Source: Sclerodactyla briareus (Eukaryota > Echinodermata > Holothuroidea > Dendrochirotida > Sclerodactylidae). From it: a stretch of 64,000 nucleotides of DNA. The DNA lies in NCBI GenBank assembly GCA_026419785.1, contig JAODTK010005740.1, positions 88,365 through 152,364 of the forward strand. The letters run 5' to 3'. The notes below the pieces were generated by a model. It had not been told where the DNA came from. It made no database searches and saw only the letters and a list, made by a program, of their open reading frames with translations. Of this stretch, positions 1-55,329 are shown piece after piece; position 1 is the stretch's first letter, and each line of letters starts with the position of its first letter. Made by a program: the position numbers and the translations under genes.

Positions 1-3000
1 CTCAGTCTATGCCCTGGAGCGGTATGTATACAAAACCCAACACCTTCGGGCCACAGCTAGGTTGTTCATCTGCCTAAAATGCTCTTTACCCAGGGATGCC
101 AAATTCACTCTCTCCCGCTGGATTGTTCAGCTTTCACTCCAGCTCTCCTCACTCCAGATCTACACACCTTGCACTGCCACTCACCACTAACAGTGTCTGA
201 GTTTCGTTGCTCGGCAGATCCCAGAGTAGTTATCACCACAGTCTATGTACCTACTCGTAGGCTGAGACAATCGTTCGTTGTTCTATCATCGTACAGTTTC
301 CTAACCATGTTGCGTCTGTAGTTTCCACTGAGACCAACCCCTTGCCAAAAGGGACCCCCATACCTGGACGATATACTCATTCATTATTTACTGGTTACGA
401 GCAGTACGCGACATGTTTACTCCGGATCACTTTCAGACTTTGGGCCCATCTAGGAAACATTCAAGGGCCCTTTGCAGCTGTTAAACTTTCTTGCATTGGT
501 CATCCATTGTTCTTGATAGAAGTCACATTTCATATGTAGTTGGATACCTACAAGCGGGACCTCGTTGTTCGATTCAGAGCATCTTGGAGGTTTTTTTTGA
601 GGTCTGGCGAGCCAATGGCGAATGACATTAGTCTGGCCCCATTCTTTGTGGGGTGTATAAGTTATAAGATTGTATTGATACTTTGAATGTTCGAACGAGA
701 GCATTTCTCAGACCTTTCACAAGGTCCAGGGATACGCGCAGCAGATAGACTCACGACAAACGTCCATGTCTGCGCATGCCATGTTCTCCTCCCAATACTA
801 TCCATTGCTTGGATATTAGCACCTCATCCGTTTGGTGGAAACCCTGCAGCTCTATAACCAACAGTTGTTCCAATCGAAGTGACAATCTGCTGGTAACTCT
901 GGGACAAAAGTGCTGCTAGTAACATTGACATTTGCGGTGCTAGTGAGCAGCACGATCACGTGGCAGATGCACGCATATGAGGCACTAGTTAAACTAGCAA
1001 CTAAGACAAATACGCTGACTTGAACCGATTAGTCCGCTTCAAGTGCTCAAGAACTCGGGACAGAAGTGCTACAATTAAACTCGTAGTTGAAGGGATTTCT
1101 CGCATGAGTGTATCTAGCAGTACAAATGATTTCATTTTTGCAGGGTATTTCTCGAATTTCCGCACGTTTAGCTAACATCACACTATAACCTGCTCAAAAG
1201 CCTAATAAAACTATTGCTAGGACACTGGCACTCGGTTCTAATATGAATGCCGTATGCTTAAATCCAGAGAGGATTCCTTGTCGTCTTGACGTCAATAGGT
1301 GAGATATTAAATAAATAGTCCATAAAATTGAACATTAATTCTGTAGTCATAGGCTGGCGCACCGCAGTGAGTGGATGGAGTAATTAAGACAACGGTGAAC
1401 AAACTTCTAGTGAATATCCTCGTTCTTGGAACACGAATGGTTGTATGTGTCGGCACTGATATAGGTGATGCGTGTTCGTAACGTGATATGCGAAGTGGAA
1501 ATCAATGTTGCTGGGTGCATCATAGGAGGTTGAAATTGCGGCCATCTTAGCTGAACACTCTGACCCTATTGTTTCGGCGTTCAAGAGTGTTTCGGCCTCG
1601 ACGTCCGAAGCGATTGCCGACAGCGCTTAGCTTGCGTAACCGTCTCTAACATCCCACGTATTTGGCGATGCGATTCATAGGCGAAATATCATCGTAAATC
1701 ACTAGCCTGATGGTTAGACTACACACTTCCACTGTTGGTATTACTGCTGACGTGTCGTGTCAGAGTCGGTTCGTTAATGTCATCTCCTCAAGTGTCGGTC
1801 TGTACCTCATTATGAGTTATCATTTTGTTTTCAGTTAGGTGTTTCTATTCCATGGTATTTCTTGTAAGGAAAATGATGGATAAGAGACTACTGTGTATAT
1901 CTATCGTTTGTAATCGATAATGCATAAGATTTAACCATCGAATGTATTGTAGTGAGTATGTTTTAGGAGGCTAAAAAATGTCGAACTAGGTATTTGACCT
2001 TTTCCTGCTATTATTCGCGTGATGAGACCCTTGCTAGAGACTAGCATTCCGTTCAATGTTAGGACACTCGAGTAGCACTACGATCACTAATGAATACGAT
2101 CAAGGCCTACCCCTACGATTATAATTATAATTTTCAGGAAGTACAATTATTATATAATTTTGCGATACACTTTAAGCTCAGAACTCGCCAGAATCAGCCC
2201 TGTAGAGTCACTGGCATATCGAAGAGTCTATAGACTATAGGTCACGTAGGATGGCACGATCTTGCCATACTACAGTAGGCTACTGATGGGTATGTCAGTG
2301 CCCATGCAATGTAACGAAACTAACGTTACCTAACTCATCTTCGAAGTGATCATCCAAAATTAAATGGAATTTCATGACACTTGTTGTTCTATACACACTA
2401 GCCTATGTCCCTCAGTCTGAAAGATTCAATCAGTTATGCAGGGATCTTCATTTCAAGGCATTGTACTGTGCCACTACTACACAAAGTAAATGTTACGATG
2501 TTACCACGATAATTTAAAGTCTGTCAGTCCGTCGGTCTTCTAACGTTTAGAACTAAAAATACGTCACACCGTGTTTCCAAAGTCCAGTCATCAGCGTGAT
2601 GCTTTTGAAACTGTTTAGATTCCGGTTCCGTAATTTTAGTTTTTTGGTCACATGTGAGTTCCTCATAGTTGATCGATTATCAAATCTTACTACGCCTCTG
2701 TACCAGTCGTTCGTGTTCCATGACTCCCACCCCGGACAATCGCTGGGAACTTCATCCATATGACTTCTTAGTTGCCATAGCAGTGAAGTAGCTAATTTCG
2801 CAGAGGAAGACTCATGCACTCCGTTATCGAGTATACTCATTTACACTATTTGACAGGTGAGGCTCGGTGATTGTGTGTGGATACGCTCTGTAGGTTGAAC
2901 AGGTGAATGACATCCAGGATAGAGAACATAGCATGAAGCCAAAATGTCACCAGGGCGTACTGAGCCATTTCTAACTACGGCGACTCGCTGTCTTTTTAGT

Positions 3001-3475
3001 GACGTAAGTGTGATGTAATCATGAGAATACGAGAGTGATATTCCATTAGCCACACCTCAAGTGACTGGCCCAGTGACTGGTTTAATCAGTGTCCTATTGA
3101 ATGGCAAAACACAGATTGTGCGGAACGGAATGTTTTGTTTCAATATTCTCAGTTTCTTTTGTATTCTTTTCAAGTGACGCATTTGTGATGTAATTTGCAT
3201 TGCTAATGTAGACGGTGTAGCTATAAAATTGCGACAGTTATGTTTCAATGGCCACTTCCAGACGGACCGACTGACTTAACTGATTGGTGACGGCCAGTTT
3301 TGCTAATTTAGGTATTTTCCATTAGGTTGATATTTAGATAAAATCACACAGTATTACATTTTTTGAAACCCAGTCAATGTTGTAATATTGTATTTTATTT
3401 TTTATAGTACAGAAAGGTAAACACTCACTGGTCCCAATCCCCGGCCTTCCTCGAGCGAGCCATCGGACCAAGACC
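1..3475. other. Unique AT-leaning DNA, no gene seen
   Basis: Stops are frequent in all frames and I recognise no protein, RNA gene or element. A short AT-rich palindromic stretch (repeats of TTATAATTATAAT type) lies near 2120-2165. Two short blocks, about 2995-3060 and 3170-3210, share the words GTGACG and GTGATGTAAT, which may be a very old duplication. Confidence 0.5.
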
Positions 3476-3790
3476 TAGTTTAGTTTAGTTCGTGTGTAGT
3501 TAGGTTTAGTTTAGTGAAAAGGGGTCAGGAAAGTGTTAAAATCCACATGGAGACCCGTACGCCACAACATCCCAAAAGAGGAAGAACAACCCAGATGCCT
3601 GGAGAATTCGCCCACATTCTGAAAATAAATCGAGACTGTTCTTGAACGCATTCACACTCTTAGACAGAAAACATACATTCTCCAGGAAGGCTATTCCACC
3701 AGGAATAACTCTCCGCGAGACGAAATATTTCCGAAGGTCCAATCTACAGGGTTGACCCGACTTGTTGATCCTCGTGCTACTCCAATAATG
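3476..3790 (-). mobile_element. CR1-like LINE, 3' end, copy A (truncated)
   Basis: The minus strand encodes the extreme C-terminus of a non-LTR retrotransposon reverse transcriptase: RKYFVSRRV (about 3738-3712), then a degenerate form of the usual WNSLP box, then NAFKNSLD. This order is typical of the end of CR1/L2-type polyproteins. Past the stop, at lower coordinates, the element ends in a tandem tail of AAACT units, seen on the plus strand as TTTAGTTTAG at 3476-3515. The same 3' untranslated words, including GGGGTCAGGAAAG, recur in copy B at 35.6 kb, so the two belong to one family. The copy is 5' truncated as LINEs usually are. Family identity is inferred from motifs; the clade could be CR1, L2 or a close relative. 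Confidence 0.75.
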
Positions 3791-6700
3791 AGCAATACGT
3801 ATTGCCCACCGGATTGTTCATGGGACCACATAAACATAGATAAACACCATAAACAATAATGGCTGTAAGAGCTTGCAGCTTCAAAGTTGTCATTTGCAAT
3901 CTTAAATTTGTCATTGTGAATTTGCAAAGTGTCAGAGCAAAGGGTGAATATTGTGAATCCTCGATGCTGAGGAACCGGGCATACTCATGATCTTGGCTCA
4001 ACTCCGGCACGAACTCCAATCAGACGCATACGTCATTCTAGACAAGATAGATCAAAGAACACATGCGCATCCATGGAAAGTAACCAACATTGATAGTGAG
4101 TCCACAAAAATTGAACTTTTTTTTAAAAGAAAATCTAACCCGGATACAGCAATATGGCGTACGTGAAGGAATTGCCCATCAACTTCGATTACACCACATA
4201 AGGACAGTTGCTGCGGGATATATTTGGGGGAAAAACATTAGTTGTTTGAATTCACATTTACCTCATCGTGACGTTAGCGAACTTCAAGTTCAACAAGATT
4301 CCTCTTCCCGCACCGATTTTCCTCCCTGTGCATTTCACTTTTCCTAACTAATTTGATATGTTTATATCCTATACTCGGAGTCACAGTTAAATTCCTGACA
4401 GGTTGCAGCAGTTCTATTGAAAAATCAAGATCTTAAGTCCTTTGCCCCCAAAAAATTCCGGTCACTTTCTCAGTCAATCTGGCAGTTCCGAGACCCCGTA
4501 GGCTGGATTTGGAGCTGGAACATTCTCCAACATTCCTAGAGCAGACTCTGGTCAGGCAGTCCATTGGAATTGCACACGAAACAGCTGCCGCGCCATAAGG
4601 TTTAGGTTCCATAGGGTTCGAGACATTTTTCGATTCGGAATTGCAAGGTAATACTACTTGCTAAAAACACTAATAGTTAGAGGAAATTACGGAAATCTGT
4701 GAACAAACTCCTTACCAAAACTTGTTTGCACCTCCTCGTAGTGCCCTCGAGCAATATCAGTTTACTTACACTCACGGCGCGGTTCTAAAATGAAATCGAT
4801 ATTGAAATTGTCGGAATGTGACTGTAATAGCATTCATGCCATTTTACATGAAGCAATAGTACATGAATGAACCAGGGTGGATTCATCGACTTGAAAATTG
4901 GGGCGCTCTTCAAAATGGCGACGGAACTAAAACAATATGGGATAGCCTTAAATCACAATATACCGGTAAAACATATGGATCTAAAAAAAGTGCACCCTAA
5001 TCATCCCCACTCCCATGAGCACCCTGGCATCGGACAAACGCTTTTGCCAGCGGGGACCAAGATTGCTACCAACTGAGGTAGTCATGGGGGAATTTAGTTT
5101 TGCCTCACCCCACATTGTGATCGCTAGAATAAAGAGAGACTAGAAGCACGATTGAGCAAAACACGCGGAGCTTAGTTTCTCTGTCTATAGACAACATGGT
5201 CGCCAAACGTCAACAGCCTCCTGACATAAACTCATTCATGCCGGGACCCACTCAAAGCTTGCTCACTGTTTTGTCCTCGGCCCTTAATATGAGTGCGTCG
5301 AAAACATGTATAGCTCATCTCTTTCCAACTTTGTCCGGACACAGCGCGTCTGGCCTCACCGACAGAGGTAAGTGTTATCTAGACTAAGCCATTGCTATGG
5401 CAATCAAGTAGGTCAGGTGATGCTATGGCTAGAGAATCAGCGGGAAACAACCAGGAAGTAATTTGTGATCGAGATTATAAATGCCGATTTCCCTTTGAAC
5501 CCCGTTTAGTGAAGATATAAGTGCACGGTCGTACAACACGACCAGGATGGTAAAATAAGGAGCTCCCGTTGTTTCTCGATCAACTGTTAGCGGAATATTT
5601 TAATTTTATTCTTATCACGAACAAGCAAGTACAAGTATACAGGTCAATAAACTAACCCAGTGTCTAGTTCAGAGTGTCGACATAGAATGACATGATGTAG
5701 TTAGTAAATGGTTAGTAGAGACGGTATAGCGTAGGGCGGGAACATGGCAGGGTGGTAGTAGTGACGCTTGGAACGCAAGCATTCCGTGTTCCGAGTTATC
5801 GCTCATCCACGGTCAATACGGCCAGGGGTCCTTGATGAGCCTCACTTAGCTTCCCAAATCGAATCAATTGTGTAACCTTAATAAGCCTATCTGAAGTTAC
5901 CATTGAATGATACACTTACGACATGCCGTAACTATACACTCAGAAAGCACTGTCTAAGTAGATACCTATTCTTGAATGTATGGAAATTACACAAGAAGTG
6001 TGTGACGACTACACAGGTAATGTACTTCTAAACACAATATTGTGGATTTTCTACACATATTCAGGTTAGAATAGATGTACTAGTACACAGTGTTGTGTGA
6101 TAATCATTTTCACCTTCAAAATCTAGAATTACGACGGCATGGTGTATATCAGGCGTAAGAGGAGGGGCTGTGTATGTATAAAATTATCACTCTGGCATAT
6201 AATCTGCGGCCTGAGGTGATTTATTTCTCCTCAGTTGAAGTAATCGCAGTTAAGATTTGTAATCGCCGGTTGTTTTTCGGAAAGTATCACGATTTGTGTT
6301 ATTTGTTAACGTTGCTCATTCTTACTATTCAGGACCAGCAACCCCAGAGAGTCCGAGAAAATACGACTAAACAGAACAACTGAACAACAGAAAAAACGGA
6401 ACAATATAAAACAATGACAGATTATTCAGTTATTCACTGAACAGAAAATGTAAATCATGAAACTAACTTAATGTACGAGCCATATAAATACACGATCTAG
6501 TTCCATTGTTCCATAGGCAGATTTACGTGATATGCGCTCTTTTTTCGAGAAGCCGACGAACTCAAGATAGATGTCTATTCCGGGCCTACTTTCCGGCCAA
6601 TTATTGAAATCCCTCGTGGTCATGCTGACATACACATTTGCTCGCGGAGAGGGGTTCAGAAGTAAATTGTATTTGTGTCATATACCCTTTCTAATACATT

Positions 6701-11488: not shown

Positions 11489-11869
11489 TCAGGAAGATGA
11501 GAGAGGAGAGGAGATTGCTTCCAAGTCTTGCTCTGTGAGGTCGGAGTATAATTCCCCCAAACTGAATACTCGCTCAATGGTGCACTTGAAGCTGGGATAG
11601 AGAGGACTTTCCTTCACCAGTCGGTAGTCCGGGGGAATTCTTTCCGGTTCTGAACCAGAAGGTGAAGCATTCCTCATGGTCACCTTCAGTTTCCAGTACA
11701 GCATAGAACGAAGCCAGTTCACCTGTCAGCGTTGACGAACCTGTCTTCTTCTTACTGGGCTTGGACATAAACCTCGGCTTCTTTAGATGGGACCTTGGTC
11801 CCTTCTTCTGGTTGACAGTTAGGTCCTCTCCGGAGGGCTCTAAGCTCTCTACTTCCCGTCGCAGCTGTG
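11489..11869 (-). pseudogene. hAT transposase remnant, last exon (dimerisation domain)
   Basis: After the acceptor at 11,870, one frame stays open for about 95 codons and carries a basic linker (SKPSKKKTGS) and the acidic helix ELASFYAVLET. Around 11,680-11,640 the plausible frame shifts by one base into a second frame. That frame carries ERVFSLGELYSDLTEQDLEA (11,575 down to about 11,516) and ends at TGA. The ERVFS box followed by a leucine-rich helix is the C-terminal dimerisation domain of hAT transposases. The frame change would be a single indel. I infer this is the natural C-terminus. Confidence 0.75.
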
Positions 11870-12791
11870 CTGTAAGAGGGAAAAACAAGATTTGAATATT
11901 ATAGCTATTGGAATCGCCAAGTCATGGTGACTGTTCCATCTACAGTAGGACAGAAATCCATTTAGGACTCTGTAAGAAATAGAATCCATGAGTGTAGTCT
12001 TCACTACAATTCCATAAATGGGTAAGCTGCCAACAACATCGATGAGTTCACATTTTACTAACATAGAAATTGAGGAATTTTTAACCGACATCACACCTGT
12101 CACACCTGCAACGGAAGAGGCAGGACGATTAGAAAGGACCCCCACATTATACCATTGAAGCTCACAATATTTCCATACTAGTTCTGTGAATGAGGCACTC
12201 AGCAATTCAATTTGTTCATGGCATCACTGGAACAATACAGCAACGTTGGCAAATCAGTTAACACTTGAGCTTCGTTCCTCTGCCCAGATAAAGTGGCTGC
12301 CAAACATCAAGGCCATTGTTGTGGGGTATAACAACCCCCTTGGCTACTACTAGAAACGTTACTTCATGTCAACAACAAAAACTGACAGGAGCAGTGTACT
12401 TGGGGATGACATATCTGCTCGTATAGTGCATATAGGACCCCTATGTTTTGCAGTCTCAGATGTGAAGGTCGACTTGTGTTCATAATATTAACTTCATAAT
12501 AAGCATCTAAGGTCGTCACATAGGTCTATTAGTCTATTCCTTACAATATCTTTCTCTTATCTGGTTTACCTCAGTCATCCAGTAACTGGTTACTGCTCCG
12601 GTTAGTAGTTCAAATTAGTTAGAAGCCAGTCAAGTTTCTGGTATGCCCTTGTCTTGACCAAGTCATTTTGTTCCAAATGATTTACCCTACTGTACCCAAT
12701 GTGTTTAATTTGTTACTGTGGTGGGATATCTGTTAAGTGATTGTGACTATCAAACTAATCCCGGTTTATCCAGATGCTGAATATATTATAC
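11870..12791 (-). other. Intron-like spacer within the hAT remnant
   Basis: It begins GTATAA and ends TTCCCTCTTACAG in the minus-strand sense, so it obeys the GT-AG rule with a pyrimidine-rich acceptor. No element is recognised inside it. It could instead be an insertion into a once continuous reading frame. Confidence 0.45.
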
Positions 12792-14241
12792 CTTTTATGT
12801 CAACACGATCTGGTTCTTGGCATCAGCCGTCATTTCTTCATCCTCTCGACCCCAGGAGAACCCCCACCAGGAGCCAGAACAGCGGCCATGCATACACCTG
12901 ATCCCCAAGTCGGCAGCATCTACAGGTTCAGATTCCTGGCTCATCTTTTGAGGATACCTCTAAATCTCTTCCTCTAGAGTCCAGCAATGCCCTCACCATT
13001 GCACCACAGTGTCCGGCGTGTTTGTGACATCCCCACACGAAAGCTGGAGACGAAGAACGCCGGGCACAACACAGCTTTATTGTTACGTCCGTCTGTCCTT
13101 GCGTCATGTCGGTGAGTTCAAGGAATGGCGTCAGAACCTCTTGTGAGTTCCCTAAGCACTGATCTCTCTTGCCGCATTTTTGAGGTGTTCCACCTTCCTT
13201 TTCTTCAGTAGACTGGTAAGCTTACTAGTGTCCAGTCCTGTCACAGACATTACTTGGCGTAAGTGAGTTCCACCTGGTGACATTGGCTGCTGGTATTCCA
13301 CAGTTGGCACCGACTTCTCCTCAAAGCCATCTTTTGAAGCCTTACTGCCTGTGGCTGAGGGTTTGACAGCTTCGAAACCTCGCGATGGTTGTTCGTGAGC
13401 CCGGCCACTTCTTTTCATCCATCGTGTATGACCAGCTGCAAGGTGTGCCGAACCGAGGACGCCTTTGGATGTCTGGTGTTCTCCTCATCGTTCCGATCAC
13501 CCATCAGCGATGTAACCAGGAAGATCTTCCAACATTCCATCGTTGTCGACTACTTCCTCGCCATCATCTCATCATCACTCGCAGATATCTTCTGTTGTGG
13601 TTGATGGCCGGAGCAGTATCATCTTTTCTGTCTGGACCAAAGAAACTTGTGCTGAAGGGGGGGGGGGGGCCTTCTTCAGTTTGCCGCATGTCCGTTACCT
13701 ATATACTTATCTTCTTTCTATCCCATAGTCCTTAGCAACATCTTCATACTCTCTGCTGATGTGAGTTCCAGTGTGCTTGCCAGTAATCCTATACACAGTG
13801 CAAAGGACGACTGCCGTTTCAGCTGACCACTATCACGATCTCCTCCACTGTGTGGGCGGTGTATCCCAATACCCTCTATTTTCGGTCCAGACCACATGTC
13901 AGTTGTTGTGGTACAGAATGTTCAGTTGTCCGCCTCTCTTGATTGTCAGATTTGACAGCTTCCACCTTGTTTGGGATCTTCGTCTCTGTCAGTGTGTGCT
14001 GCGTGCAACAGGTGTGTACCTTGATCAGTTGTGTTCATGAACCTTCTGAAGGAGGCAGTCTCAGTTAAGGAAAGCGGTAAATTACACCCGATGATGAGGT
14101 CCATTCAGATGACTCCGTTATTTTGAGTTGCTGGTGATTGGTTACGGCCATATTTCTGCTTGGATTTGTCGGGGACTACAACAAGTTATCCATGGAAGCT
14201 TGATCAGGAGCCGTTGTGATGGAGCTTCAAATTCCTTGATT
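12792..14241 (-). pseudogene. hAT transposase remnant, first visible exon (catalytic core)
   Basis: The segment opens after an acceptor-like CTTTTCAG at 14,242-14,249. Motif positions on the minus strand are: IIGCNLPLSL about 14,095-14,066; TTDMWSGPK 13,906-13,881; ITGKHTGTHI about 13,790-13,760; VTDM 13,698-13,687, with a TAG just before it; HTLQLVIHDG 13,447-13,418; NNHREVSKL 13,400-13,371; WNTSSQ 13,300-13,283. LTDMTQGQT falls near 13,120, VRALLDSRG near 12,990 and MAAVLAPGG near 12,885. HTLQL is the hAT C-x-x-H-like insertion-domain entry, and W marks the usual RW position. The third acidic residue expected after MAAVL (normally Asp) reads Ala here. A donor-like AAG/GTATAA closes the exon at 12,792. 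A G9-10 homopolymer at about 13,660 coincides with one frame break. Confidence 0.8.
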
Positions 14242-29104: not shown

Positions 29105-32100
29105 ACCACACACCACAGAGGGACCCGTATGTCTCTCCTTGGAACAAAGTTCATACGAGACAAAAATCACCATTGGGGCCAGATCTTTGTGGTCAGTTGA
29201 GAAGAAAATTAAATTTTTATATCAGTCCCAGCAGCCATGCGTCAACTCGAAGTGTTACGTCCCGTGCGCTACCAGTATCAGTACATGCTGTATTACATTT
29301 GTTAATTGCTGGGCCGCCCTTGTACTACTATGGTAACAAAATGGCTGGCGATGACAAGTTGCGGTGGATTATTAGGAAAGCAACATACGAAGAAACCTTG
29401 CGATTCCGTTGGCGTAAATAATAAGGGCAGATAATTCAGCAAATGCAGCTACGCGTGTGAGCATTCTTCAGTGGTGATTTCCCTAAAAGGAGTCAAAGCG
29501 TTAGTCCACCTTTTAACCGTTCATTGTTAAATTGAATCCCTTGCTTTTCCTTTTTTTTCCTCTTATGAAATTTTTTCCGTCAAAGGGGTTGGCATGGTGG
29601 GTTCCATCCATAGCATATAGGAACTATACCTCTGCGTGGTTATATCGTACACAAATCTCCGCTTTTGCGGTGCCTATTCCATACTTTCCATGCATTGTGA
29701 TGTAAGAATAGAACTATAGCCCCAGTGATTTATAACTACATTTGCCTAGACCCTGTTGGGGTCTGCTCGGCGTATGTACTACTCTACTATGAATCCTTAA
29801 TGTTATATCCTGCCGTGGCCGTTGGCTCGCCAGATCCGAGGTAAGGACGAATCGAGGATGGAAAATTATCTGGCGACCGTGTTGTTGAGCTCAGCGTGTA
29901 ATTTCAGTGTTCGCGCTGAGGTGCGCTCGACTGCGCGATTCGCGCACTGGTTTCCCGAATCCCTCACAAAAAATAATTGTTCGCGGGAATTCCCGCACAC
30001 TTTTTTATACATATCTGATGTTCATAATTGCCGATATCAATCTCTGTAAACTCATTGTGACCCGACAAAATGTCCTGACAGGCACAACAGAAATCCATAC
30101 AGATCTGGCCACTATATCGACGATGTGCCGGTGTCCTGGCTGTGCTTGATGGGCTAATCCTGATAACGTCTTCCTGATTAGTCGTATTCCGAGAGATTAT
30201 GCGGTGCACCCGAAAAAAAATTCGCATTTAACTATTACGTTAAAGAACATTGCAGACATGGATACAACAGACGTCCATATGGAGAACCTGGGAATGAAAA
30301 CTGTATCTGTTGTCCAACCCCATTGCGATACTATGTTCTTGAATGTGGCGTTATTGGCCTGCCAAAGTTTGGGTCATTAGCTAGAAATTGGGGAGAATCC
30401 CAATCGCGCCATAACGCATGACGTCACACTAATAGACAACACACGGGAATATGCTATGTATTTCATTGTTTTATTTTGTTGAATTGAGTCAACATTTAGC
30501 AAAAATTTTGTTGTCTTTCTCTCACCACCGTAGCCACACAAACCATACCAAACACTCAGCAATCCTCTTCCCATAGATGAATTGCTTTTTCGAAGTGAAA
30601 TTAATGTTTGAATTTCGATAGAAAACAGAATGTTTGCAGGGTTGTGCAGGTATGACACTTTTTTTTGCACTGATGGTATGCTTTTCCATCTTGCGCAATA
30701 CACATGCTTCACAATAACAACTTCATGCACTGTAACTCCGTACGGAAGTCGTATGAACTTGCCAGTTTGGCACTAGCGCATTCAGTTTTTATCTGGCTAT
30801 TATATTAGCCCTTTCATAAATAATCCTGCATCCTGTCTTTTAAACGTTGTTTTTGTTTTTTTTTGCTGATTTTTTCGTCGATCAGTACCGCTACACATTT
30901 TTATTTGGATCCAGTGAATTTCGCCTCGTCATGATGCCTCGAAGGGTCTGCATTCGTTCTTCAAACGGAAAAGATCTGAAGGTCAGGCACGATGAATGCA
31001 TACTCATATTATTGTGCGCAGACATAACACTGCAGGACATGATAGAAAACACTATTTTCAATGTTCCTCACTTACGGAACCCAGCAGGCCCAGCACAATA
31101 TCGATAGACTATATACGCGATTTACTGAGTCCTCAACAAACTGGTGCATGTAAAAAGTTCTATGATACATGTGGATGGGCGCCAAATTCCACTACTGTAA
31201 AATACGTTTAAAAACTGCAATCAAAAAACTAAAAAACGCAATCCTAAAACATCTAAAATCATCATATGATAAACATGCAATGTAGATGGGTTGCTACAAC
31301 CACTTCACAAAAGACTGACATGTTATTTCAAGGTTCTTCAGGAATCACTTCTCTGTTTCGGTCGATTTTGTTCCTGCACAAAATCAAGCAAGTTCATACT
31401 TAGGCTCACTGCTGCTACGTGTGGGAATTATAAAGCCATCCGAACATGTCATTTCGTTTTTCTTCTCTCATTTAATCACAACAAAATACTATATTGCTTG
31501 GAAAGAACTTCACTATGGTCGGAAAATGTTGCTGTTTTGAAGGATTTTGCCCTTTCATCGGCAATCCATGTAGCTATGGAAGCAGAACGGTATGGCATGG
31601 GGGTGGCATTACACGCATGTACCCATCTGCCTATACAGTGTAACTATAGTTTTGCAATGTAGTTTTGTGTTTGATATAGAGGGAGTATTTAAAGGAGCAA
31701 ACTTGGTCAAGAAGGGAGGGCTGCACCCTTAGCGCCCACCCTTCCTATTGTTAAAAACACAATGTTTGTTAGTATCATGGATGAGATTCGCTGATCTCAT
31801 TCTGAGAACCCCCTCCCAGGCTCCCCCTCTTGATTTCAAAACCCCCTTTTGAAAAATGTGAGGGGGAACCCCCTCCCCCCAATTGAGACCTAGCGTAACA
31901 CTCAGCGCGGCAGCGTGTAGCATGCCAAGACCAAATTCGCCAGTTTGTGGCCGGTCTTGAAATGAAGGAAAATTTACGGGCCGTTCGCTGATTTATAATA
32001 TCCCAAATCCCCCAAAAAAGCTTAACCCCCTAACCCCCCCCCCCAAAAAAAAAAACTTACTGAGACCTAGCGCAAACACTGTCGTGTCATGGTCAGAAAG

Positions 32101-36565: not shown

Positions 36566-37417
36566 ACTAATACTATTACTGCATGAATATCTTTTATATA
36601 GATTTAACATGACTGAGCCAAAAAAAGAAAAAAGAAAAAAAAAAACTCACATGGCCCTAAAGGGTATTATATAAACTTTACTGTCAGAGTAACTTTTGGA
36701 CGTTTTTAAACCGCTTGGACTGTTAGATATTGCGTTAGGTGCAGTATTAACATTCTCAACCAATGAACTACTACACAAAAATAGCTGATATGCTGCAAAA
36801 AAATGTCAAGTAAATTTTATTTGAAATTCCCTTAAACAGCTACGAATATGTTCCCATGAAGTGGCGTACGGAGACTGAGGGTATCCTAACACACAATCAC
36901 CTTTTTAGTACACACCTCAGTAGACGTTTCACAGCTGTTGTTCACCATATATTGCAACAGCATGTGTCTAGGGGACCATTAATTGCATTTATTTGCCAAT
37001 GGGGAGGGTGAGAATGGGAATGAGGGCGCACTTGGGTCCCGATCCCACCCCTCCCCAAGACAGTCTCTCGGTACGCCGTCCAACTGGGCCTCATCTTTCT
37101 CCCTTCTTCGAGAAGGACATCGGAACATATTTCAGGTACCTCGTGCCCGTTGCAATGAAAAGAACGTCTAATTTCCTACATAAGGCAGTATTCCACTATT
37201 TCAAACTACAAAATGACTGAGCTGACTGGAAGTCATTGTACAAACTGACATAACAGTAGCAAAAAACATTTTTCAAGTATAATAGCCTGACCCCGAGGAC
37301 ACTGACACACAAATAGACTTCCTCCGAAAGGAATGGCGTTGGATGGGAAGCATTAGGTATGAAAGAATTTTCAGCTGTTCATGTTAGCAGCATTTCATTG
37401 TACAAACTGACATGATA
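36566..37417. other. DNA without recognised genes
   Basis: A-rich tract at 36,620-36,646. Two blocks share the word TTGTACAAACTGACAT (near 37,236 and 37,398), a short local duplication next to the large microsatellite. Confidence 0.4.
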
Positions 37418-37945
<528 letters not shown>

Positions 37946-46521: not shown

Positions 46522-46957
46522 CAGGCGCGGTTCTACGGGGGGGGGGGGGGGATGGGTAGGGAGGGGCAAGCATAAGGAGGGGGGGGGAGGGGGGGTATGG
46601 AGGGTGAGGGTCAGGGGAATTAGGGATGGGGAGAGGAGAAGGAAGGAGGGTAGGGGAGGGAGGGAGGTGGGGGGGAGGGAGGGGGGGGGGGGGTATGGGT
46701 CGGTGGGGGGGAGGAGGGGAGGGTTAGGAGGAAGGGTAGGGGGGGGAGGGGGAGGGTAGGGGGGTGAGTGGAGGGGGGAGGGGGCTTGGGGCCCCGCCCC
46801 CAAAATGTGCTCAAGTCCCCCTCCCCCCAAAAAATGTTCGAGTTTTGTATACATGTAATCTATAATATGCAGTATATTGGTGCTTAAGCCCCCCCCCCCA
46901 GCTCCCCCCCCCCCAAAAAAAAAAAAAAAAAAAAATCTTGGTCTAGAACTGCGCGTG
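46522..46957. mobile_element. G-rich hAT-like MITE, 436 bp
   Basis: Left end CAGGCGCGGTTCTAC, right end (reverse complement) CACGCGCAGTTCTAG, matching at 12 of 15 positions. Flanks are GTCAGGAG (46,514-46,521) and GTCGGAG (46,958-46,964), identical apart from one missing A, which fits an 8-bp hAT target duplication. The interior is an almost pure G/A tract (46,538-46,785) that runs into a C tract and an A tract (46,889-46,935). The G tract gives proline- and glycine-rich open frames that are not genes. Confidence 0.7.
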
Positions 46958-52977: not shown

Positions 52978-55329
52978 CAAAAAGTTTCTATGAATTCTAT
53001 TAAAAAAAATATATGAAATATATACAATTTCTATAGAGGCCCCTCTATAAAAACTCTATAAATTTTCTAAAGAATTTCTAAAGAATTTCTAAAAGCATTA
53101 TAAAGAAATCTAAAGAATTTCTAAAGAATTTCTGAAGAAAATCTATAGGATATTCTATAGAAACTCTATAGGAATTTCTAAAGAGTTCTAAAGAAAATTT
53201 CTAAAGAAAATCTATAGGATCTTCTATAGAAATTCTAAAGACAATCTGAAGATATTCTATAGAACCTCTATAGAAACTTATAGAACTCTATAGAATTCTA
53301 TAGACTGTGAAGAATCTCTAAAGAAAATCTTCCATGGAAACTCTGTGGGGTCTCCAAAGGACTGCTAAAGAAATCTCATTAAATAATGTACTAAGAGAAT
53401 CATTATATAATTCTGATATGAACAAAGGCCTATACTACCTTGATCGGTAATGGCAAATAGTTGAATAGCTGATTTACCCCCCCACCCCCCCCCCCACCCC
53501 TTCCCAAGCCGGGACGGTCCGCGCTGGGCTAACTTTGATATAAATAATTTTTTACTGATTGCGCATCCGCGAGATAAAAGAATAAAATCTATGCCGTGCC
53601 AATTACACACAACTGAGGGCTAATAGAATAGCATAATAAATTCTTAGCGTCCGAACGTTTGGGCTAATTAGCCGTTACATATTTCAAGAATAATAAAAGG
53701 ACATACCGGGTCAGATAATGGGGCTCCCTCAATTTTCCTCAAAGGGTTTAAGCATATTAAATTACGCATTGTTAACAGTGTAATACCAGTAAAGGCATAA
53801 ACACAAACAAATTGCACCAGACTGGCATAGCTATATGCAATACAAAAATGTGGAGAAAATTGCCTATGTGCGGGTACACTGCATATTTGTTAGGGCTATA
53901 AGCCTCACATCCTCTACAAACTTTAGGCTTGAATATGAATAAAAAAATTACTACCAAATAGAAATAATCATAATTTCCAATTGACAACTTGAAACTATAA
54001 TTCCTGGTCAATTATACTAAAACATTATCCAATGTTCCGTGAATAATAACCAATTTAGAGACTGGAATGGCTGAATTCAGAAATACAGAGCCTAACGCCA
54101 CGCCTGCATTTGAATTAGGGCTGTCAAAATCACAAACTGCTCTTGTCAGTTGTGATTGTTTAAATCTGACTGAATATTATTAAAATTTATCTGTGACAAG
54201 TTAATAAGTTCAAATGATGTAAGTAAAGGCTAATTAGCCTATCAATTTCACCATAGATCCCAAACATTCATAATCATGGGATTTTGATTAATAGAAGAGC
54301 ATACATTATATAACTAGCTAAATGGCAACCCCCAGACATGATCATAGAGATTCTATAGAAACTCTATAGAATCTCTATAGAAATTAATGAAAGCCGTTTA
54401 TAAGTAAAATAAGCTCTTATTTCCTTTTTATGCGTATAGCATTCTAGAAGTTAACAGAACAGCCAGAAGAAAGTTACATCTCTAAGCCTGTCCACATATC
54501 ATAAATCTTCATGTTATTGATATTAGAAAAGAAGGTCTAATGCGTAAATGGGCTGAATAGGGGGGGGGGGGCGCATATAGGCCTATACAGAAATGAAACA
54601 AAGTACCAGTTGGCAGGGGCGCGTGCTAGAAAGTGGAAAAGAAAAAAATTGGGTGACGGCATTAGCAGGAGCCGTACTGCGTCGGCAGCCCTTGCCTGTC
54701 AACACATATGAGGGGGGTTAAAGAGTGGGATATAACTTCTCATTCCTTTATCTGGCCAACTCTCCCTCCCAACCATTTAATTGCATGTCAAAGTCAAATT
54801 GTCGTCACCAGCAGTGCAAGCAGTTGCTCCTCTCTTTAAGTTGAATGTGGAGAAGAGGAGACACATGGCACAATTAAGGTACGTTGTTGATAAACCAAGT
54901 GATTGTACCCAGCTAATATTATAAGCTATCAATAACAATAACAGGTATTGTAACGTTTAGTGTGAGCGGCAATAAATTTCGGAAATAGCCAGAAGAAACA
55001 GACGCCTTTAAAACTAGCAGCCTCACAACTTTCAGCCTATTTCAGTGCAACTGAAACATATTATTATTATATTCATTATATTATTAAATCCTCATTATCA
55101 GTACAATGGAATAGATTTTCAGATTCTAAATAGAGGTCTATAGAGTTCTGAAAAAATGAATCTGTAGAACTCTATAGAGTGACTAATGCTTACAACGATT
55201 AATAAAAAAAACATTAGTAAGTCATAGAAATTATGAATTCTATAGAAAAATGGATCAATTTATAGAAAGGACCTTCTAAGAATTATAGAACTCTAGAGAC
55301 ACTTCTATAGAATTCTATGAACTTTTTTG
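52978..55329. mobile_element. Putative 2.35-kb element with TTCTATAGAA subterminal arrays
   Basis: The left end reads CAAAAAGTTTCTATGAATTC. The right end, reverse complemented, reads CAAAAAAGTTCATAGAATTC. Both are bordered by TA (52,976-52,977 and 55,330-55,331). Inside the left end, about 350 bp (52,985-53,350) is packed with ten-base palindromes TTCTATAGAA, TTCTAAAGAA and variants. The right end has a sparser array (55,130-55,320), and a short cluster lies at 54,346-54,386. Between them is AT-rich DNA with no recognised coding. This arrangement suggests a foldback-like or TA-duplicating non-autonomous DNA transposon. I do not recognise the family. Confidence 0.55.

Follow-up and report, generated by a model that had tools for sequence, protein, structure and literature searches.

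The locus considered here raises a simple question: is a transposase-like coding region with an intron and broken reading frames a host gene domesticated from a transposon, or the remains of the transposon itself? It lies on the minus strand, from 14,080 to 11,481, of the window (the whole stretch of 64,000 nucleotides that was analysed, on contig C2983) and corresponds to the remnant of a hAT transposase. Our preferred answer, to which we give a probability of about 0.93, is that it represents an old and now dead copy of an autonomous hAT DNA transposon of the BED type that carried an intron, and that its present state reflects decay, not domestication.

Ten single-frame pieces of the region did not match any Pfam profile (0/10), so that assignment to the hAT superfamily needs a test that tolerates frame shifts. 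The query for this test was a C-terminal open frame on contig C2880, obtained by scanning the genome for the hAT dimerisation region of Pfam; the assembly comprises 319 Mb in 3,171 contigs. With frame shifts allowed, this frame aligns with the window at 11,626-11,481 with a score of 162, along a path that contains three frame shifts in 49 codons. Elsewhere in the window, on both strands, scores do not exceed 38, and 30 shuffles reach 40 at most. The C-terminus is thus a genuine hAT remnant. The presence of a hAT transposase had been proposed in the earlier note from the sequence, together with a frameshift-tolerant search as a check, and it is confirmed by this match. The alternative that the locus contains no hAT element and shows only a chance resemblance could draw on the ten unmatched single-frame pieces, but it is ruled out by the alignment with the C2880 frame; since the alignment and the motif scores described below are far above those of the shuffles and of the rest of the window, and fall in order, we give this alternative practically no credence.

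A read-through composite of the region, joined by hand, matches PF05699 (hAT dimerisation region) at 4.1e-10 and the Hermes transposase with E values of 7e-7 to 9e-7, over 62 aligned residues at the C-terminus only; the frames of this composite were chosen by eye with hAT in mind and are therefore biased, the C2880 alignment being less so. Outside the C-terminus, the window reading has no sequence match with Hermes, and Pfam contains no match for the N-terminal half of the composite. The last-exon piece, searched in one frame for a Hermes-type match in the PDB, gave none. From the frameshift alignment and from PF05699 on hand-picked frames, the last exon (11,869 to 11,481, minus strand) encodes a charged linker and the hAT C-terminal dimerisation region, with the motifs IERVFS, RPHRARLG and FLKCN. 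Compared with phage records by megablast, the C-terminal stretch had no match, as expected; Rfam had no match in the window, and a tRNA scan found no tRNA.

Eight hAT motif strings, written down after the translations had been seen, which makes some bias possible, were aligned with 48 tiles covering both strands of the window. Seven of them have their best window place inside the element and in the correct order. The strings for D1, D2, HTLQL, RWNS and LTQGQ, ordered at 13,906-13,062, and the string for the dimerisation region that follows them were unequalled in 60 shuffles of the element, whereas the N-terminal linker string is borderline (14,080-13,995; equalled by one of 60 shuffles) and the LDP-RFK string, which 33 of 60 shuffles equalled, was not found. 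The statement that all landmarks occur in order, made in the earlier note, is thus close to correct but somewhat too strong. These motifs define a main transposase exon with broken frames (14,241 to 12,792, minus strand), which encodes the N-terminal linker and the RNase-H-like core and whose 5′ limit is that given in the earlier note.

The DDE acidic triad is readable in this remnant. In the motif alignment paths, the first catalytic Asp (TTDMW) corresponds to the GAC codon at 13,900-13,898 and the second (VTD) to the GAC codon at 13,692-13,690, both positions being presumed from the hAT motif strings. The third position had been read as Ala; it is a Glu (IERVFS; GAG, 11,575-11,573) in the C2880 path, in the motif path and in the Hermes alignment, where it aligns with the Glu of SERTFS, residue 572 in chain numbering, which we take to be the catalytic Glu of Hermes. 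The available portion of the text of a Hermes paper (PMC10368747) does not mention E572.

Between the two exons lies an intron of 922 bases with GT-AG ends (12,791 to 11,870, minus strand). Its donor AAAG/GTATAA, with the intron start at 12,791, and its acceptor TTTTTCCCTCTTACAG, with the intron end at 11,870, bear out the two-part coding region with proper splice ends seen previously. A related copy on contig C2862 (L006) shares DNA with the window from 13,331 through the donor, whose GT is conserved, to 12,383, and again from 12,318 to 11,989. The intron DNA of the two copies is therefore homologous, indicating that the intron was present when they diverged; the homology ends inside the intron at 11,989 and no exon 2 was seen in L006. 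BuT2 of Drosophila, a hAT transposon, has a transposase gene of five exons according to the accessible part of its description (PMC3942097). Since hAT transposons can carry introns, as this partly accessible source indicates for BuT2, and since the intron of the window element is common to another copy, the presence of an intron with well-formed splice ends is no sign of domestication in a transposase; we thus reject domestication on account of the intron, to which the earlier note had pointed.

The element probably extends further upstream. An N-terminal BED zinc finger is common in the hAT superfamily, without being present in every member, and none had been noticed at this locus. At 16,942-16,865, 2.6 kb upstream of the main exon and with the same orientation, a BED motif string reaches a score of 57, the best of 96 tiles (next tile, 44; best of 200 shuffles, 42). 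When read across two frame shifts, joined by hand, this stretch (AKCKFC..AVISG....SNFQKHFQRK) gives a match of 1.8e-5 with Pfam zf-BED (25.1 bits, for a cut-off of 20.6), pointing to a probable remnant of a BED finger; another BED motif string failed to pick it up. With the window BED reading as query, the best score in 12 other longer loci (L006, L007 and L038-L047) was 44, with no clear finger. The remnant is probably the first exon of the hAT gene, so that the element probably reaches at least from 16,942 to 11,481. A search for terminal inverted repeats with an 8-base target duplication, in which the 5′ end was sought at 14.3-18.5 kb or 16.95-20.5 kb, gave no hit (0-1 in shuffles) when three mismatches were tolerated in 14 positions and one in 8, or two in each, but heavy decay would hide the repeats.

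Besides the window itself, the full DNA query retrieved four C2862 pieces from the genome. This contig carries two related copies, at C2862:245,334-249,399 (L006) and C2862:261,201-261,678 (L007), with 72-75% identity to the window (blastn pieces of at least 150 bases). L007, located about 12 kb beyond L006, matches 13,201-12,983 and then 11,825-11,645 with only 15 bases in between, an arrangement that indicates an internal deletion. In L006, about 2.2 kb (2008-4225) stand opposite about 155 window bases (13,487-13,331) and likely correspond to a later insertion. DNA queries made of the 3′ part (601 bases) and of the 5′ part (1,221 bases) retrieved nothing from the genome beyond the window. 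L007 holds part of exon 2 by local alignment and was missed nevertheless, so that this search undercounts; as far as it can see, the copy number at the DNA level appears to be low. At the protein level, the genome scan with PF05699 detected 38 places at E ≤0.001, the window not being among them, 12 of which contain internal stops. The hand-joined protein gave 29 matches in the genome at E ≤0.1, seven in the window, one on C2862 and 21 elsewhere, the latter restricted to the C-terminus. The earlier note had considered that many diverged copies across the genome would speak for ordinary transposon decay, and the 38 PF05699 places and 21 related C-termini largely correspond to this picture.

The comparison with L006 allows exon and intron divergence to be set side by side, which provides a quick test. 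Three scoring schemes were applied to the window and L006. In the coding part, mismatches amount to 16.0-20.0% of the main exon piece (exon 1), over 501-510 aligned bases, and to 18.3% of another exon piece of 164 bases; in the intron, they amount to 18.9-29.1% of the 5′ piece and 16.4-22.4% of the 3′ piece. Exon and intron divergence are near-equal. With all three schemes, exon 1 shows slightly fewer mismatches than the 5′ intron piece, the only sign that speaks against strict neutrality. Exon 1 contains 44, 34 or 32 indels depending on the scheme, of which two, one and one, respectively, are multiples of three. Counted only where the motifs fix the frame, the 109 substitutions are distributed over the three codon positions as 30/169, 35/175 and 44/174 (p = 0.21); the excess at third positions is non-significant and, together with the slightly lower exon 1 mismatch, leaves room for weak past selection on the coding part. 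No purifying selection was thus detected, and no intact reading frame is present. The broken frames described previously are evident in the seven motif alignments in the element, which together include 14 frame shifts and two stops, although shifts near the alignment ends may be noise. The near-equal divergence of exon and intron, the frame-breaking indels and the codon positions together argue for decay, with no selection since the copies parted.

Part of this damage could originate from the assembly, as suggested in the earlier note from homopolymers at the frame breaks, such as the run of 13 G at 13,657-13,669 (plus strand). Conserved genes were scanned in the same assembly. For actin, 14 of 16 matches are without stop, with three adjoining matches, each in a different frame, at C1260:170309-170820 (profile positions 229-410) and two adjoining matches in different frames at C2792:267460-267940; for HSP70, 8 of 14 matches are without stop and two overlapping matches are in different frames at C2424:94846-95132. 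These frame changes in actin-like and HSP70 sequences, located within apparent exons, may be either assembly indels or pseudogenes, and assembly indels may likewise add some of the frame breaks in the hAT copy. This explanation is at best partial. Of the single-base indels that distinguish exon 1 of the window from that of L006, 8/31, 7/25 or 7/24, depending on the scoring, fall in runs of at least three bases, which hold 13% of the bases, so that most of them (23/31) are located outside homopolymer runs, and indel errors do not account for 16-20% substitutions. The number of indels per 100 bases is 4.3 and 6.5 in two unrelated pairs of old repeats in the window and 4.2-6.3 in the hAT pieces with the same scoring; the damage is not special to the hAT locus.

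These data bear directly on the possibility that a hAT transposase was domesticated at this locus into a host gene that is still functional, its frame breaks being assembly errors. Such a gene would agree with the readability of all three acidic residues, with the frame changes in the conserved actin and HSP70 genes of the assembly and with the slight third-position excess. However, an exon that diverges about as much as the intron, with frame-breaking indels between copies, a codon-position p value of 0.21, two more decayed copies (one of them with an internal deletion), the 14 frame shifts and two stops of the motif alignments and the location of 23 of 31 single-base indels outside homopolymer runs make a functional gene very improbable. 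We attach just as little weight to the idea that a hAT gene was once domesticated and later lost, the window then containing a host-gene pseudogene and C2862 its duplicate. The few copies found at the DNA level and the terminal repeats that were not found would fit such a history, but the related C-termini at 21 other places and the 38 places with a hAT dimerisation region are transposon-like, and substitutions of about 16-20% would in any case make the ends of an element difficult to recognise. Only a shade more credible, and still highly unlikely, is a temporary capture of the element as a multi-exon host gene followed by its loss; an exon that has diverged slightly less and a DDE triad that can still be read would then be the trace of past coding constraint.

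In the case of a dead hAT transposon, which we favour, the source would be an autonomous element with a BED finger, an RNase-H-like DDE core and a C-terminal dimerisation region. Its transposase would have been produced from a spliced gene, with at least three exons (BED, core and C-terminus) if the BED remnant belongs to it. By analogy with other members of the superfamily, the live transposase would have bound the ends of the element and moved it by cut and paste. Copies would have spread and then, unselected, accumulated substitutions, frame-breaking indels and deletions.

Among known systems, Hermes (PDB 6dww, 2bw3, 4d1q and 8edg) shares with the window element the C-terminal dimerisation region, including Glu 572, and a BED finger on the N-terminal side, in contrast to which the window copy is dead with broken frames. 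BuT2, a hAT transposon of the Tip group, resembles the window element by a transposase gene split by introns. In the portion of its description available (PMC3942097), the most complete BuT2 copy of D. willistoni carries terminal repeats of 12 bp and target duplications of 8 bp, and the reading is intact in D. buzzatii, whereas terminal repeats, target duplications and an intact reading were not found in the window element. The ZBED genes, which derive from domesticated hAT transposases, have in common with the window element the BED finger, the hAT core and the dimerisation region. They are host genes that have been conserved and whose orthologues occupy corresponding positions, as far as the accessible part of the source describes them (PMC3606216), unlike the window element, in which frames are broken and the exon decays like the intron. 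The locus adds one more old hAT family, with little significance beyond annotation.

Several other features are present in the window. Old repeats common to the window and to the L007 stretch of C2862 are located at 31,898-31,387, 31,395-31,232 and 29,747-29,837, and another old repeat, at 30,861-30,239, is common to L038 with 78% identity. The window also contains a long array of ATA triplets (37,415-37,945; about 176 units), a G-rich array of GGGGAGGG-like units (46,622-46,784) and an imperfect array with the 11-base unit TTTCTAAAGAA (53,064-53,304).
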